From contig NZ_QRHA01000003.1 in NCBI RefSeq assembly GCF_003367475.1, positions 1 to 64,000 of the forward strand: DNA of 64,000 bases, read 5' to 3'. Below, piece by piece: positions 50,816 through 58,271 of this stretch (position 1 is the first letter of the stretch; each line of letters opens with the position of its first letter). Both the position numbers and the translations under genes were made by a program. This DNA comes from Alteromonas aestuariivivens. Its GTDB lineage: Bacteria; Pseudomonadota; Gammaproteobacteria; Enterobacterales; Alteromonadaceae. The notes beneath the pieces are model-generated. The model was not told the DNA's origin. It searched no databases and saw only the letters and a program-made list of their open reading frames with translations.

Positions 50816-51791
50816 GTTGCTCTCCTCCTGGCTGGAACAAAGTTACGCTGCGCTTCTTGGCACCCCACTTTCCCACTGGCTGGAAACCTTGCCCGCACAG
50901 ATGAAGCACTGGGCAAGCCAGGAGCTTCACGGTGAATTTAACAAGTGGTGCCGGTTACTGGACAAACTTCCCGTAACGGAACCCTCCCGCGTCGATTTGC
51001 TGCAATCGGTTACCTTCGGCACACAACAGGACGTTAATGACTATACACGCAAACAGATTGAGGGGCTGCTGCGACAATTTATGCCGTGGCGCAAAGGGCC
51101 GTTTTTTATTCATGGCCTGCATGTTGATACAGAATGGCGCTCCGACTGGAAATGGGAACGGGTTCTCCCACACATCAGTGAATTAAGCGGTCGCACCGTT
51201 CTGGATGTGGGGTGTGGCAGCGGCTATCACATGTGGCGCATGCTCGGCCACAATCCGAGTCGGGTATTTGGCATCGACCCAACGCAACTGTTCTTTATCC
51301 AGTTTCAGGCCATACGGCACTTTCATCAGGATGACAGGATCCACTTTTTACCGCTCGGTATTGAGCAAATGCAGCCGCTCAACGCTTTCGATACGGTTTT
51401 TTCAATGGGAGTGCTTTATCACCGCAAAGATCCCATTCAGTTCCTGACGCAACTCAAGCACCAACTGCGTAAAGGCGGTGAACTGGTGCTGGAAACCCTG
51501 GTTGTTGAAGGTGATGAACAAACCGTCCTGATGGCTGGTGAACGTTATGCACAAATGCGTAATGTCTGGTTCCTGCCCAGTGTTGCTGCACTCAAAGTGT
51601 GGCTCGAGCGAGTTGGATTTATCAACGTAAAACTGGCCGATATCAACCACACTACGGTTGAAGAACAGCGGGCCACAAACTGGATGGAATCCCAGTCTCT
51701 GGCAGATTTTCTTGACCCTCAAGACCCCAGTCTGACCATCGAGGGCTATCCGGCTCCTCAGCGGGCTGTGCTCATCGCTACCCGTGCCTGA
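50805..51791 (+). CDS. cmoB: tRNA U34 carboxymethyltransferase CmoB
   Basis: Transfers the carboxymethyl group of carboxy-SAM to 5-hydroxyuridine 34 in tRNAs. It shows the family N-terminal block [19 protein letters not shown], the SAM motif [18 protein letters not shown], and [24 protein letters not shown] place the start at GTG 50805 (328 residues), just behind AAGGAG at 50795-50800; the TTG at 50808 is an alternative. It overlaps cmoA by 11 bases. Confidence 0.95.
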
Positions 51792-51828
51792 GCCGAGACC
51801 TTAACCACCCTCGGCCTGCCCAACGGAC

Positions 51829-52050
51829 AACCCGGGTTAAACCGGGTTAATACTGATGACAAACTACTGCGCTCGAAATTGCGGCGTCAAAAGTCTTCTC
51901 AAAATCCTCATTTACCATTTGTAAACTGCGGTTTTTTGGCGACTTTTTCCTTGCACTTTCTTCGCTCGCTACGTTTGTCTCCAGTCTGCAGAGTGTTTAA
52001 TGTGAATAACCAGACTTTATCAACACTCTGAACCCGGATTAAACCGGGTT
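51829..52050. mobile_element. 222-bp MITE-like repeat unit bounded by 20-bp repeats
   Basis: AACCCGGGTTAAACCGGGTT at 51829-51848 recurs at 52031-52050 with one mismatch. The motif is almost palindromic, so it also works as an inverted pair (18 of 20). Inside is a 9-bp inverted repeat (CAGAGTGTT 51989-51997 / AACACTCTG 52022-52030). The core GCTCGAAATTGCGGCGTCAA and TCCTCATTTACCATTTGTAA resembles intergenic repeats I associate with Alteromonadales genomes. There is no transposase frame, so mobility would need a helper. Confidence 0.55.
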
Positions 52051-52134
52051 CGCCCTTTCTCTGTGCGTTGGGCTTTGCCTGTCCGGATACCCACAGACAT
52101 TAAGCCAAGCTTGTGAGTTGGCACAATTGTTGTA

Positions 52135-52178
52135 ACCTTATCTTTAGAAAAACCGTGTGAAAACGGCACAGATAAGGT
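52135..52178 (+). promoter_or_regulatory. Dyad that can mask the ribosome binding site of the glucosylglycerate operon
   Basis: ACCTTATCT (52135-52143) and AGATAAGGT (52170-52178) are exact complements. Between them CCGT and ACGG can extend the fold. The right arm contains the AAGG of the ribosome binding site, seven bases from the ATG at 52185. In RNA this would block initiation until opened. In DNA it could instead be an operator. If transcription starts at or after 52145 the left arm would not be transcribed. Confidence 0.5.
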
Positions 52179-52184
52179 AGCGCG

Positions 52185-53060
52185 ATGGACATAGCCAGCT
52201 TTTTATCAGAGCACCAATTACCCGAAACTTATCGACAGACTGCACAAAACTGGTTCATACCGCTGGCGGATGAAATTAAGTCGCACTGCAGTGGTGCAAG
52301 GCGACCCTTTTTCGTCGGTGTTAACGGCTGTCAGGGTTCTGGAAAGTCGACTTTGTGTGATTTTCTGGTGTTCTATCTTGGCCAGGCCCATGGCCTGAAC
52401 GTGGTCACGGTTTCTCTCGACGATTTCTATTTACCCAAATCAGACCGTAACGCACTGGCCATTAAAGTGCACCCTCTGCTCGCCACACGAGGGGTACCCG
52501 GCACCCACAACACGCCACTGGCTCTGGCCACGCTGGCGAGGCTGCGGGAATACGGTACCGTTTCTTTACCAAGATTTAATAAAGCAACTGATGATCCCCG
52601 CCCGGTAACCGAATGGCCTGTGATCAATAGCCCGCCCGACATCGTGCTTATTGAAGGCTGGTGCTGGGGAGTGCCTCCGCAACTGGAACAGGAACTTGAC
52701 ACCCCGGTCAATGAACTGGAAGCCAACGAAGATCCACTGGGTACCTGGCGCAGGTTTGTTAACAGCCAGCTTGCCGGTGATTACCAGACTCTTTTCAGCC
52801 AGATGCAGTACTGGGTGATGCTAAAAGGCCCTTCCTTTGATCATGTGTATCGGTGGCGCTGCGAACAGGAGCACAAGCTTCTGGCTAAACAGGGGCCCGC
52901 GGGATCCGGAATTATGACAGATGAACAAATCGCACGTTTTATTCAGCATTATCAGCGTCTGACGGAACACGGATTCACGACTTTGCCTGGTCGGTGTAAT
53001 CATGTCTTCGAGTTGGATGAAAACCGTCACATAGCAAAGGTAGTTAAACAACCATTATGA
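52185..53060 (+). CDS. D-glycerate 3-kinase-like P-loop kinase
   Basis: A 291-residue P-loop kinase related to glycerate 3-kinase (GLYK) and phosphoribulokinase/uridine kinase folds. The Walker A is GCQGSGKS (residues 48-55), followed by SLDDFYLPKSDR (Asp79-Asp80 region) that positions substrate and Mg. The block GVPGTHNTPLALATLARLR and the IEGWCWGV motif are typical of GLYK. It would phosphorylate D-glycerate to 3-phosphoglycerate. This fits its place at the head of an operon whose other enzymes release glycerate and consume 3-phosphoglycerate. It overlaps the next gene by four bases (ATGA). Confidence 0.85.
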   Translation: MDIASFLSEHQLPETYRQTAQNWFIPLADEIKSHCSGARRPFFVGVNGCQGSGKSTLCDFLVFYLGQAHGLNVVTVSLDDFYLPKSDRNALAIKVHPLLATRGVPGTHNTPLALATLARLREYGTVSLPRFNKATDDPRPVTEWPVINSPPDIVLIEGWCWGVPPQLEQELDTPVNELEANEDPLGTWRRFVNSQLAGDYQTLFSQMQYWVMLKGPSFDHVYRWRCEQEHKLLAKQGPAGSGIMTDEQIARFIQHYQRLTEHGFTTLPGRCNHVFELDENRHIAKVVKQPL

Positions 53061-53881
53061 CAGGACACAAAACGGTTATCTTCACGGATATGGATGGCAC
53101 CCTGCTGGACCATCATACGTATAGTTTCGAAGCCGCAATCCCTACACTGGAGATGTTGAAAACGCGCAACATTCCGGTGATCCCGACCACCAGCAAAACC
53201 TTCGCGGAGTTGCTTGAACTGCGCAAGCAGATTGGGCTGGACGGGCCCTTCATCGTCGAAAATGGCGCCGCCATTTACATTCCACACGGCTTTTTCAAAC
53301 AGAAGCCTGCCGGAACAACCTGGCAGGACGGTTTCTGGTGTAAGGCTTTTATTTCCAACAAAGGGTATTGGCTCAAGCTGCTGGAAGTCATCAAACCGGA
53401 ATTCTCCGGCAAGCTTACACACTTCAGTAGCATGACCATTGAGGACATACAGGAAGCAACCGGTCTCGATGAAGCCGCGGCCAGCCGCGCTGCGCAGCGG
53501 CAATTTGGCGAACCAATTCTGTGGACTGGTTCAGACAGTGAAAAGGAACAATTTATACAGGTCATTCGCAGTCGCGGAGGCTACCCTCTGGAAGGCGGGC
53601 GTTTCATTCATCTTTCCGGTGATTGCAACAAAGGGGCAGCACTGAGCTGGTTTATGGAAGAATATCAGCGCCAACATCATGCTGATTCCACATCCATTGC
53701 CCTGGGAGATGGCAAAAATGACGTTGCCATGCTCGAAGTTGCTGACATTGCAGTCCGCATCGCCTCCCCCAGTCATCCCCCCCCACAACTTGAAAAACAA
53801 CAACAGGTGTACACCAGTACCCGACTCGGCCCTGAAGGCTGGACTGAAACCCTCACTCAATTGCTTGATTTAGACCATTAG
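53057..53881 (+). CDS. gpgP: Glucosyl-/mannosyl-3-phosphoglycerate phosphatase (HAD family)
   Basis: A 274-residue HAD subfamily IIB phosphatase of the mannosyl-3-phosphoglycerate phosphatase type. The nucleophile motif is FTDMDGTLLD (Asp11, Asp13). VIPTTSKTFAELLELRKQIG gives the second motif, and LGDGKNDVAMLEVADIAVRI is the metal-binding motif. Next to a GpgS-type synthase it most likely dephosphorylates glucosyl-3-phosphoglycerate to glucosylglycerate. Mannosyl-3-phosphoglycerate may also be accepted, as known for the family. Translationally coupled to the kinase. Confidence 0.88.
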   Translation: MTGHKTVIFTDMDGTLLDHHTYSFEAAIPTLEMLKTRNIPVIPTTSKTFAELLELRKQIGLDGPFIVENGAAIYIPHGFFKQKPAGTTWQDGFWCKAFISNKGYWLKLLEVIKPEFSGKLTHFSSMTIEDIQEATGLDEAAASRAAQRQFGEPILWTGSDSEKEQFIQVIRSRGGYPLEGGRFIHLSGDCNKGAALSWFMEEYQRQHHADSTSIALGDGKNDVAMLEVADIAVRIASPSHPPPQLEKQQQVYTSTRLGPEGWTETLTQLLDLDH

Positions 53882-53889
53882 GAGGACAC

Positions 53890-55113
53890 ATGGCCGATTT
53901 TTACCAGAATGGTGTGGTTACCACATTGCACAATCTTTCACGAAGACCCACCGAAGAACTGGAAGCGGAACTGCTGCGCTTTTCGCAAAAGCGCCCGATG
54001 GCACTCATTCTACCCTCGCTGTTTTCAGAACTCGAAGGTGACGCGCTACCGATGATAGTAGATGAACTGACCAACGTGCCCTACTTATCCGAAATCGTCA
54101 TTGGCCTGGACCGGGCCGATAAAGCGCAGTATAAGCATGCACTGAAGTTTTTCAGCAAACTGCCCCAGCATCACCGGGTGTTATGGAATGACGGTCCCCG
54201 TCTTAAAGCCATTGACGAGGAACTGGCCAAACTCGGCCTGGCACCAAAGGAATTGGGTAAAGGCCGCAATGTCTGGTACTGCATGGGCTATGTACTGGCT
54301 TCCAACCGGGCAGAATCGGTGGCCCTGCACGATTGCGATATAGTGACCTACCACCGTGATTTGCTGGCGCGTCTGATTTATCCGGTTGCCAACCCCATGT
54401 TCAATTATGAATTCTGTAAGGGATATTATGCCCGTATCGCCAATGGCAAAATCAACGGGCGGGTATCCCGCCTACTGGTAACACCGCTGCTTCGCGCACT
54501 GAAACGTACGCTGGGTGACCACGAATACCTTGAGTTTATGGACAGCTTCCGCTACCCGCTGGCGGGCGAATTCTCTTTCCGCCGCGATGTGCTCAACGAC
54601 ATTCGCATCCCCAGTGACTGGGGCCTGGAAATTGGGGTGCTGTCTGAAATGCACCGCAACTATTCCCACAACCGCCTTTGTCAGGCAGACATTGCCGATG
54701 TGTATGACCACAAGCACCAAGATCTCTCGTTCAATAATGACGAGGGTGGTCTGTCAAAAATGTCCATCGACATCACCAAAGCGGTTTTTCGCAAGCTCGC
54801 TACCCAGGGTTTCACGTTCTCCAGCGAAATGTTCCGCTCCATAAAGGCAACATACTACCGCATCGCACTGGACTTCATTGAAACGTACCACAACGATGCC
54901 GCGATGAATGGCTTGTCACTGGATATTCACAGTGAAGAGAAAGCCGTAGAGTTGTTCGCCAGCAACATTATGAAAGCCGGCCAGAGCTTTCTTGAAAACC
55001 CGATGGAAACCCCATTTATCCCAAGCTGGAACCGGGTAACCAGTGCGGTACCGGATATTCTCGACCGGATACTGGAAGCGGTAGAAGCCGATACGTCTGA
55101 ATTGTTAGGGTAA
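53890..55113 (+). CDS. gpgS: Glucosyl-3-phosphoglycerate synthase
   Basis: A 407-residue GT-A glycosyltransferase of the GT81/GpgS type, transferring glucose from an NDP-glucose (UDP or ADP) to 3-phosphoglycerate. Near the N-terminus LILPSLFSELEGDALPMIVDEL and VIGLDRADKAQYKHA are family blocks. The metal-binding DCD is residues 148-150 (LHDCDIVTYHR), and FCKGYYARI and WGLEIGVLSEMHR line the acceptor side. A strong ribosome binding site (GGAGGA) precedes it, 8 bases after the phosphatase. Sugar specificity (glucose versus mannose) is inferred. Confidence 0.9.
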   Translation: MADFYQNGVVTTLHNLSRRPTEELEAELLRFSQKRPMALILPSLFSELEGDALPMIVDELTNVPYLSEIVIGLDRADKAQYKHALKFFSKLPQHHRVLWNDGPRLKAIDEELAKLGLAPKELGKGRNVWYCMGYVLASNRAESVALHDCDIVTYHRDLLARLIYPVANPMFNYEFCKGYYARIANGKINGRVSRLLVTPLLRALKRTLGDHEYLEFMDSFRYPLAGEFSFRRDVLNDIRIPSDWGLEIGVLSEMHRNYSHNRLCQADIADVYDHKHQDLSFNNDEGGLSKMSIDITKAVFRKLATQGFTFSSEMFRSIKATYYRIALDFIETYHNDAAMNGLSLDIHSEEKAVELFASNIMKAGQSFLENPMETPFIPSWNRVTSAVPDILDRILEAVEADTSELLG

Positions 55114-55116
55114 CCT

Positions 55117-56877
55117 ATGAACACGAACTGGAACCAATTACACGAAAAGGTCAGTCACCATTTGCAGGCCATTTACGCGGATGTCGTCACCGACATTGCG
55201 GTCGGGGATTTGGCTACCCGCCTAATGGAAATCATGCGTCTCAACAGTGACGATGACATCGCCACACCGCTACCCCACTGTAATCACTGGGATGAAGAAG
55301 ACATCATCATGATCACCTACGGTGACAGCGTGATCCAGGAACAGGAGCGCCCGTTGTTTACGCTGTCCCGGTTCCTGCACACCTACTGCAAAAATACCAT
55401 CAACAATGTGCACATACTGCCGTTTTTTCCCTACAGTTCTGACGATGGCTTTTCGGTTATCGATTATTCGAGCGTCAATGAATCACTCGGCGGCTGGGAA
55501 GATGTTGAACGGATTGCCGCCGACTATGGCCTGATGGTCGATTTGGTAATCAACCATTGTTCAGCCCGCAGTGTGTGGTTTGACAATTTTATTAAAGGTG
55601 ACGGCCCAGGCAGCGATTTTTTCTTCACCGCAGACCCTTCCGCCGATTTAACAGGTGTGACCCGACCAAGAACCTCACCGTTACTGCGCGAAACCGAAAC
55701 GGCCAACGGAACGCAGCATGTGTGGTGTACCTTCAGCCATGACCAGGTGGATTTTGACTTTCGCAACCCCAAAGTACTGATGACGTTTATGGAGATTATC
55801 CGCCAGTACATTGATGAGGGAGCGAAAATTTTCCGCCTCGACGCTGTGGCATTTTTATGGAAAATCATCGGCACCAGCTGCATCAATCTGCCTCAGACCC
55901 ATGAAGTGATCCGCCTTATCCGCACACTGGTTGAACACGTGAACCCGGGGATTATGCTGATCACCGAAACCAATATTCCCAACCGGGAAAACCTCACTTA
56001 CTTTGGTAACGCCAACGAAGCCCACGCCATCTATAACTTTTCGTTACCACCACTGTTGGTCAATACCATGGTTACCGGCAACTGTCTGTATCTGAAAAAC
56101 TGGATGATGAGCATGCCGCCGGCACAAAACGGCACCACCTATTTCAACTTCATTGCCTCTCACGACGGCATTGGCCTGCGGCCAGCGGAAGGGCTGCTGA
56201 GTGACGAAGAATTGGGCACGCTGGTCAACACCATGCAACACTTTGGTGGCAAGATTTCCTGGCGAGCCTCTGAAAATGGTCAGCAAAAACCGTACGAAAT
56301 CAACATTACCCTGTTCGATGCCCTGCAGGGAACCACCAAGGGGCCGGATAAGTACCAGGTTGACCGTTTTATTTGCGCCCACGCCATAATGCTCGGCCTG
56401 GAAGGGATCCCCGGCATTTACATCCACAGCCTGCTGGGCACTTCCAACGACTATGAAAAAGTCGCCAACACCGGGCAGAACCGTTCGATAAACCGCAAAC
56501 GCTGGGACTATCGTGAACTGGAGGCCTTGCTTGATTCTCCCTATTCGCAACACCACAAAGTACTCACCCGGATCTCACAGCTTATCCGCATTCGCAAAGC
56601 GCAGTCGGCCTTTCACCCTAACGCCACCCAATTTACCCTGCAATTGGGCAATCACCTCTTCGGCTACTGGCGCCAGAGCCTGGACCGGAAACAGAGTATT
56701 TTCTGCATCAGCAACATAACCGATGAAGAGCAATCCATACTGCTGTCCGACATCAACCTCATCGGCACTGACAACTGGCTTGATCTGATATCCCGCGATC
56801 AAATCAACAGTTCCGCCGGTTTTATCCAGCTTAAACCCTACCAAACCGTCTGGATCAGTAACCAGGACATGGAGTAA
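55117..56877 (+). CDS. Glucosylglycerate phosphorylase (GH13 subfamily 18)
   Basis: A 586-residue GH13_18 phosphorylase of the sucrose-phosphorylase group. Predicted catalytic residues: nucleophile Asp242 ([11 protein letters not shown]), acid/base Glu284 ([16 protein letters not shown]) and transition-state Asp350 ([15 protein letters not shown]). The SHDGIGLRP loop and the overall set fit glucosylglycerate phosphorylases (EC 2.4.1.352) rather than sucrose phosphorylases, and the operon context agrees. It would cleave glucosylglycerate with phosphate to glucose 1-phosphate and glycerate. Sucrose or other glucosides cannot be excluded by sequence. A three-base gap separates it from gpgS. Confidence 0.87.
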
Positions 56878-56879
56878 TC

Positions 56880-56911
56880 GAAAGTGCCTCTGTTGCAGCA
56901 GAGGCACTTTC
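56880..56911 (+). terminator. Terminator of the glucosylglycerate operon
   Basis: A perfect 13-bp stem GAAAGTGCCTCTG / CAGAGGCACTTTC with a 6-base loop starts three bases after the phosphorylase stop and is followed by TTTTCATTT. A strong intrinsic terminator that closes the four-gene operon. Confidence 0.93.
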
Positions 56912-57020
56912 TTTTCATTTCGTCAGCCTTTTTCAATTCACTCGTCACAGATGAATCACGGCCGTTGGCTTATTTACGGCATTGGTCCATAATCGCTGTT
57001 TTTAAATTCAAGGAGTGACA

Positions 57021-58271
57021 ATGACGGACCCTGTATCTTCCGGCTGGCATTCATTGGACAGCGCACTCAGCCAGGCCCTGTCTCAGCTGAACGCCGTAAC
57101 CGAAAGCGAATCTGTGCCATTGTCCTCGGCTTTGGGAAGAGTACTTGCCAGCCCCATTGTGGCAAAACACAATGTTCCGCCATGGGACAATTCCGCAATG
57201 GACGGTTACGCCGTAATCGCCAGCAATGCCGTTGCAGGGAAAACACTGAAAGTCACCGATACGCTTCTTGCGGGAATGAACGGAGAAACATTTGAGGTTA
57301 CCCCGGATACAGCGATACGAATAATGACCGGAGCCCCGGTACCCCGTGGAGCCACCGCCGTGATCATGCAGGAAAATACCTGCAGGCTCGATAACGCGAT
57401 TGAAGTTCTGCAAACTGCCCGGGCAGGCGAAAATATCCGCCCCATGGGCTGTGACATCGCCCAGGGTGATACCGTAATTGTTGCGGGAACCCGGCTTTCT
57501 GCCGCGCACCTTATGCTGATAGCGTCACTGGGTGCAGATTCTGTATCGGTTTTCCGTAAATTGCGGGTAGGCCTGATGGCGACCGGTGATGAACTTGTAA
57601 GCGCAGGAGAAGAGTGCCGCCCGGGGCAGATTTACGAATCCAACCGTGCCGGAATTGCTGGGTTGCTTGCGCCTTTTGAGGTGGAAATTCTCGACCTGGG
57701 TATTGTTCCCGATGAGCCACAAAGGTTAAAAAACACCTTTAAACAGGCTGCCAGCGAAGTCGACCTGCTTATCAGTAGTGGCGGTGTATCGGTAGGCGAT
57801 GCCGATTTTGTCAAAGCCATTGTAGCTGAACTGGGCCGCATTGATTTTTGGAAGGTAGCCATTAAACCCGGTAAGCCCTTTGCATTTGGTCAGCTTGGCA
57901 AAGCCATTTTCTGCGGTGTACCGGGCAACCCTGTATCCAGTTATGTCACCACTCAAAAACTGGTTCTCCCCATTGTTCGTCACTTGCAGGGGGAATCCGC
58001 TATTGCAGAGTCCCGCACTCTGCCCCTCAAAGCACGGCTAAAGGGGAGCATAAATCGCAAACCCGGCAGGCTGGATTTTCAGCGTGCTCACGTCACCTTT
58101 GATGATCAGAACCAGGCCTGGGTTTCCCCTCTGCCCAAACAAAGTTCTGCAATCATGACGACAGTGACATCCGCCAACTGTTTTATGCTGATAGAGCAGA
58201 ATGTTGCTGAGCTGAATGACGGTGACTGGGTGTGTATTCAACCTTTTGATTTGTACGGATTGTGGAAGTAA
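57021..58271 (+). CDS. moeA: Molybdopterin molybdenumtransferase MoeA
   Basis: Inserts molybdate into adenylylated molybdopterin to finish Mo cofactor. The start at 57021 (MTDPVSSGWHSLDSAL) has AAGGAG five bases upstream and gives 416 residues; the GTG at 57015 overlaps that site. Family blocks: PPWDNSAMDGYAVIA, RIMTGAPVPRGATAVIMQE, VGLMATGDELVSAGE and GLPGNPVSS-like CGVPGNPVSSYVTTQKLVLP. Other Mo-cofactor related genes (MocA-like, XdhC-like) lie 2-4 kb downstream on the other strand. Confidence 0.96.
   Translation: MTDPVSSGWHSLDSALSQALSQLNAVTESESVPLSSALGRVLASPIVAKHNVPPWDNSAMDGYAVIASNAVAGKTLKVTDTLLAGMNGETFEVTPDTAIRIMTGAPVPRGATAVIMQENTCRLDNAIEVLQTARAGENIRPMGCDIAQGDTVIVAGTRLSAAHLMLIASLGADSVSVFRKLRVGLMATGDELVSAGEECRPGQIYESNRAGIAGLLAPFEVEILDLGIVPDEPQRLKNTFKQAASEVDLLISSGGVSVGDADFVKAIVAELGRIDFWKVAIKPGKPFAFGQLGKAIFCGVPGNPVSSYVTTQKLVLPIVRHLQGESAIAESRTLPLKARLKGSINRKPGRLDFQRAHVTFDDQNQAWVSPLPKQSSAIMTTVTSANCFMLIEQNVAELNDGDWVCIQPFDLYGLWK

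Follow-up and report, generated by a model that had tools for sequence, protein, structure and literature searches.

The window, a 64,000-nucleotide (nt) stretch of the Alteromonas aestuariivivens genome, contains a four-gene operon that probably makes and recovers glucosylglycerate (GGA). All four open reading frames (ORFs) lie on the + strand: a GLYK-like D-glycerate 3-kinase gene (52185..53060), a phosphatase gene of the HAD-IIB, MpgP/GpgP type (53057..53881), a gene for a GpgS-like glucosyl-3-phosphoglycerate synthase (53890..55113) and a gene for a putative GH13_18 glucosylglycerate phosphorylase (GGaP; 55117..56877). The first two genes overlap by 4 bases; gaps of 8 and 3 bases follow. 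Immediately 3′ of the operon, on the same strand, is an intrinsic-terminator-like stem-loop (56880..56911) with a 14-pair stem and a T-rich tail, which also draws the sole Rfam match in the operon region, a sub-threshold one to mir-17. Genes, spacings and terminator are as an earlier, sequence-only reading had described them. Upstream of the kinase gene we find a sigma-54 promoter motif and an inverted repeat. The best explanation of the locus, which we hold with reasonable confidence, is a make-and-recover GGA operon with a sigma-54 promoter, nitrogen control and a read-through gate. Of this, sequence comparison shows the operon, the promoter motif, the pairing in the leader and the kinase exclusivity; the enzyme activities, the start site, the nitrogen signal and the gating are predictions.

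Gene order was surveyed in nested sets of loci. The first, from named genomes with the synthase, was limited to the 80 best out of 583 related stretches and is therefore skewed to close relatives. The synthase turned up in 90 of the 394 genomes of the order that were searched; 60 of these were fetched, the other 30, the window's own genome among them, being left out, and the 80, the 60 and the window make 141 loci. A class-wide search of 369 genomes gave 51 synthase matches, of which 5 were weak (E 5e-8 or worse) and 3 already in the set; the other 43 were fetched, giving 184 loci. The order kinase-phosphatase-synthase-phosphorylase is found in 89 of the 141 loci, so that relatives do keep the four genes together, a point on which the sequence-only reading had staked its proposal. 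The kinase is absent from 30 (three-gene loci), the phosphatase and synthase stand alone in 20 (two-gene loci), and in 2 a kinase is present with no phosphorylase following the synthase. Over all 184 loci, a phosphorylase accompanies the kinase in 100 of 104 cases and is present in 36 of the 80 kinase-less loci. Kinase and phosphatase form a single open frame in 11 of the 184, Glaciecola, Moritella and Methylophaga among them. These fused frames (L060, L064, L067, L073, L077, L082, L102, L110, L124, L126 and L194 in our locus numbering) run to about 560–580 residues or more. Separately, the synthase match of genomes G020, G124, G186 and G446 contains one internal TAA, a possible sign of decay or a sequencing error.

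The kinase has no Pfam match. Its closest solved relatives are the D-glycerate 3-kinases 6ckg (E 5.6e-26) and 7xpc (E 1.4e-21), and its P-loop reads GVNGCQGSGKST. Among the 394 genomes, GLYK was found in 64 (E up to 1e-10) and the GarK-type family PF02595 in 221. When the match lists were compared by eye, no genome had both, versus 35.9 expected; the probability computed for this exclusion ignores relatedness. Both types occur within genera g28, g95 and g33, always in different genomes. Twenty-two genomes without the operon kinase were then examined: 19 in which a kinase-less operon was seen, and G083, G209 and G239, added from the genus of G229. PF02595 was found in all 22, and a GLYK match in none of 21, the last, G110, giving a weak one (29.7 bits). 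Conversely, PF02595 was found in none of nine genomes made up of the window's own and eight four-gene relatives. Searches of the own genome for the alternative glycerate kinases DUF4147 and PF02595 gave no match to either, and the operon GLYK is the sole type there among the three searched. Taken together, gene order, fusions, co-occurrence with the phosphorylase and exclusion of GarK support the assignment of the kinase to the GGA pathway, and with it the roles and the common pathway that the sequence-only reading predicted for the four products. The strict exchange of two unrelated glycerate kinases also hints at a function for a kinase that lacks a Pfam family. In eight genomes (G001, G027, G049, G069, G103, G131, G144 and G170) there are two GLYK copies, one lying in a 616–651-residue open frame beside the synthase.

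The sigma-54 (-24/-12) promoter motif, TTGGCACAATTGTTGTA, lies at 52118..52134 on the + strand. It matches the pattern TTGGCAC-N5-TTGT, seen 5′ of the first gene in the leaders of relatives at the same position, exactly and with the -24/-12 spacing. We scored such sites against a sigma-54 consensus, with hand-set weights picked after viewing the leaders and a maximum of 25; the window scores 23. A score of at least 22 is reached in 63 of 81 loci (the first set plus the window) versus 1.3% of shuffles, and in only 6 of 481 regions that precede other ORFs of these loci. It is reached in 74 of 140 loci in the larger set, the count falling to 0–4 when the spacer is off by 1–3 bases and to 1 on the reverse strand. 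By gene content, the high-scoring loci include 64 of the 89 four-gene loci and both kinase-phosphatase-synthase loci. A sigma-70 scan of 51700–57100 gave 2 sites versus 4.1 expected, neither positioned to drive the kinase gene. The eight other genomic sites with the exact pattern precede a formate/nitrite transporter, a reductase that we take to be NirB, a flagellar rod gene, an epimerase, two DUF proteins and two frames without a Pfam match. Nitrite-transporter, NirB-type and flagellar rod genes are classical sigma-54 targets. GT at -12 is likewise found upstream of E. coli pspA, a sigma-54-dependent gene, and RpoN and NtrC genes are present in the own genome. These findings suggest that the operon is transcribed from a putative sigma-54 promoter. 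If so, the conserved promoter would give a direct reason for a tie between GGA and nitrogen in common marine bacteria, and it would let the making and breaking enzymes share one transcript. Two of the eight sites, L239 and L240, lie about 5 kb apart on contig C12 of the own genome, before the transporter and the NirB-like reductase; both have TTGT, and NtrC-like half-sites, judged by eye, lie upstream of them.

As to the activator and its signal, the sequence-only reading had called for some control of the cycle, naming salt, nitrogen and carbon status as options. What the sequence indicates is sigma-54; nitrogen enters by analogy. We searched 139 loci for an exact NtrC dyad, GCAC-N7-GTGC, in the 300 nt preceding the best sigma-54 site. 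It was present in 19 of 109 non-Alteromonas loci (10 of the 30 with three genes, 6 of the 59 with four and 3 of the 20 with two), and near-perfect dyads lie 158–159 nt upstream in the Shewanella loci L103, L104, L106, L108 and L109. Control gaps of 4, 6 and 11 gave 1, 4 and 6 dyads over the same 139 loci, and all remaining control gaps between 3 and 10 gave none. NtrC control of the GGA operon is thus well supported in other lineages, as judged from these sites. None of the 30 Alteromonas-type loci, the window included, has the dyad, and NtrC control in Alteromonas is something we only infer. It is also possible, if somewhat unlikely, that sigma-54 control in Alteromonas works through an enhancer protein other than NtrC and that the signal is not nitrogen. 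Besides the missing dyads, about nine strong enhancer-protein matches in the own genome would accommodate such an activator, but NtrC dyads do lie upstream of the orthologous operon in other lineages, and two further own-genome sites of the same promoter form precede nitrite genes. Under nitrogen control, the operon would be turned on when nitrogen is short, by NtrC in several relatives and here by NtrC or a different enhancer protein, and nitrogen-free GGA could then substitute for glutamate. A passage of PMC9062515 cites Dinoroseobacter shibae as favouring GGA under nitrogen limitation, and titles cited in PMC11631117 connect GGA with nitrogen stress in the case of mycobacteria and with nitrogen-poor seas in that of cyanobacteria. 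No publication describing GGA genes under sigma-54 control was found, a weak negative given incomplete literature coverage. As a side observation, the synthesis-only two-gene operons L148–L161 show NtrC-like dyads and weaker sigma-54 scores.

The leader between promoter and kinase gene holds an inverted repeat on the + strand. Its 5′ arm, ACCTTATCT (52135..52143), would span about -10 to -2 for a start near 52145, and by the usual sigma-54 geometry it presumably lies upstream of the start site. The 3′ arm, AGATAAGGT (52170..52178), pairs with it and contains the kinase-gene Shine-Dalgarno sequence. The window's leader fold has a z of -2.42, with 4 of 200 shuffles equally stable. Pairing was tested in 63 loci having the kinase first, a sigma-54 score of at least 20 at a site 40–110 nt before the nominal kinase start, a usable start codon and at least 50 nt between. 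The duplex energy between arm and ribosome-binding site is -10.2, versus -7.3 when partners are permuted (0/5000 permutations); for the 19 Alteromonas-type loci the values are -16.0 versus -12.4 (0/5000), and for the other 44, -7.7 versus -6.6 (7/5000). Single loci beat 95% of cross-pairs in just 15 of the 63. Covariation was examined in the 19 Alteromonas-type leaders (18 distinct), a set in which relatedness inflates such numbers, and pairs were counted from leader alignment A2 only, A1 having a gap inside the window's arm. Two-sided changes fill 27 cells versus 14.8 in shuffles (0/500), and slid registers reach no more than 17; when whole pairs are counted instead, those with a two-sided change are not unusually many (98/500 shuffles).

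The pairing also follows the position of the upstream gene. In 57 of the 63 loci, the 6 without an upstream ORF found being excluded, duplex energy correlates with the distance to that gene (rho 0.55). Loci were grouped by rule, near meaning an upstream gene within 60 nt; these groups replace hand-picked ones that lacked L057. The 33 near loci favour their own partner (0/5000), as do the 17 of them outside Alteromonas (1/5000). No such preference is seen in the 21 distant non-Alteromonas loci (3141/5000) or in the 6 loci without an upstream ORF found (3239/5000); all 24 distant loci pooled give 181/5000. In 15 of 18 Alteromonas-type loci besides the window, the upstream gene ends 26–30 nt before the promoter.

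These patterns raise the possibility of a composite switch. In an mRNA that reads through from upstream, the -12 to +1 region would pair with the ribosome-binding site and block translation, whereas an mRNA started at the sigma-54 promoter would lack the 5′ arm and be translated. The region from -12 to the start would then double as an anti-ribosome-binding arm that silences transcripts not made by sigma-54, keeping a wasteful cycle strictly nitrogen-dependent despite housekeeping read-through. Such a gate would operate in Alteromonas and probably also in other lineages with a co-directional gene right next to the promoter, being kept there and absent in other loci. We offer this switch tentatively, as something a little short of an even bet. 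If true, the promoter would be insulated with no need of a terminator. The phage T4 lysozyme gene e and the IS10 transposase are known read-through-silenced genes, and the proposed gate resembles them in hiding the ribosome-binding site in long transcripts and freeing it after a local start. It differs in the position of the arm, which here would adjoin or overlap a sigma-54 promoter at its -12 element, and in serving a metabolic operon. Alternatively, the inverted repeat may be the DNA operator of a repressor, or a leader that senses temperature or salt. The repeat does overlap the promoter, and L059 has its 3′ arm at some distance upstream of the start codon. Yet the arm sequences vary while the pairing persists, not as expected of a site bound by a protein; the 5′ arm would sit upstream of the sigma-54 start; and the pairing follows upstream-gene distance. 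On these comparisons the pattern fits a read-through gate better than a protein operator, and we consider the operator or sensor rather unlikely.

The metabolic side of the proposal is known in outline from PMC7178133 and PMC11631117, in the parts that bear on gene association and a recycling operon; what is new is the sigma-54 promoter, the kinase swap and the leader pairing. GpgS would join NDP-glucose (nucleoside diphosphate glucose) and 3-phosphoglycerate, and GpgP would then strip the phosphate to give GGA. GGaP would use phosphate to cleave GGA, yielding glucose 1-phosphate and D-glycerate, and the operon GLYK would return the latter to 3-phosphoglycerate. The sequence-only reading put the cost of a turn at an ATP and an NDP-glucose. 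The ATP stands; the NDP-glucose does not, since the glucose comes back as glucose 1-phosphate, and one turn costs one ATP plus the nucleoside triphosphate for remaking NDP-glucose. The phosphatase scores above the cut-offs of NCBIfam NF001218, mannosyl-3-phosphoglycerate phosphatase (393.3 bits vs 362), and TIGR01486 (229.1 vs 164.75), and the mannosyl family name leaves its substrate unsettled. The synthase has weak matches to solved GpgS. The GH13 protein is 39% identical to E. coli YcjM, an annotated GGaP, over its length (437 bits, BLASTP). Passages of PMC7178133 give a (T/S)ETN motif and a Glu in loop A as signatures of GGaP (GH13_18, EC 2.4.1.352). The protein carries ITETNIPN, and the ETN motif is kept in 135 of 136 phosphorylase homologues; the one without it, L203, is a fragment of 210 residues. 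As the equivalent of the loop A Glu, PYEIN is a tentative candidate, and 93 of the 136 have the narrow pattern PYE[IVL]N. An earlier candidate for this site, PAEGLL, was dropped, as YcjM has PLRGLL there. In E. coli K-12, ycjM directly follows pspABCDE (L246, 1-3896).

Related gene sets have been described. PMC7178133 reports GGaP neighbourhoods with glycerate kinase, GpgS or GpgP, the same enzymes and the same idea of GGaP as a GGA sink; its available passages, unlike our analysis, make no mention of a sigma-54 promoter, of kinase exclusivity, of fusion between kinase and phosphatase or of leader pairing. The Prochlorococcus GGA operon, as excerpted in PMC11631117, likewise combines synthesis with recycling to glucose 1-phosphate and 3-phosphoglycerate, but in a cyanobacterium and next to a transporter gene, whereas the ORF list and Pfam show no transporter gene within the operon here. 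GPGS/GPGP/GGAP sets in 198 of 250 Marinobacter isolates (PMC10873239) supply three of the four enzymes in marine gammaproteobacteria; the passages at hand, unlike this study, leave kinase and control untreated.

Might the phosphorylase and kinase chiefly consume imported GGA as food, synthesis being a separate use? Parts of PMC7178133 place GGaP also in organisms not believed to accumulate GGA, and GGA uptake is proposed for Prochlorococcus, whose operon adjoins the transporter gene (PMC11631117, in excerpt), but the operon here lacks a transporter and the synthesis pair lies inside it in 89 of 89 four-gene loci, which makes this quite unlikely. That sucrose or some other glucoside suits the GH13 enzyme better than GGA is very improbable: its top NCBIfam model is sucrose_gtfA, at 203.2 bits under the 334.4 cut-off, but the ETN motif is present, synthase and phosphatase genes adjoin, and solved sucrose and other phosphorylases reach at most 186 bits by phmmer versus the YcjM score, which comes from a different program.

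Several results weigh against the make-and-recover operon with its promoter and gate, among them that sub-threshold sucrose name and the lack of NtrC dyads in Alteromonas. The synthase matches GpgS_Meth (NF040724), by name a model of a methanogen-type subgroup, nearly full length at 371.4 bits, under its 700-bit cut-off. GLYK is not exclusive to GGA, being found in synthase-less genomes too (e.g., G052 and G255). Sigma-54 scores of at least 22 occur in only 6 of 30 three-gene and 2 of 20 two-gene loci, and in just 4 of 43 class-wide loci (L197, L208, L229 and L233), so the promoter feature is lineage-dependent. Within the window alone the motif has no significance, and genome-wide the exact pattern has 9 sites versus 7 for the reversed pattern, no clear excess. 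As for the leader, at most 10 of 16 pairs are kept in 6 of the 19 Alteromonas-type leaders, and L050–L056 show no own-partner preference. Nor is the window the neatest case of a gate, its upstream gene ending 326 nt before the promoter.

Finally, the operon is flanked, by Pfam, by two methyltransferase genes upstream, which we take to be cmoA and cmoB, and by moeA downstream. A terminator-like stem at 52029-52052 separates the upstream methyltransferase gene from the operon.

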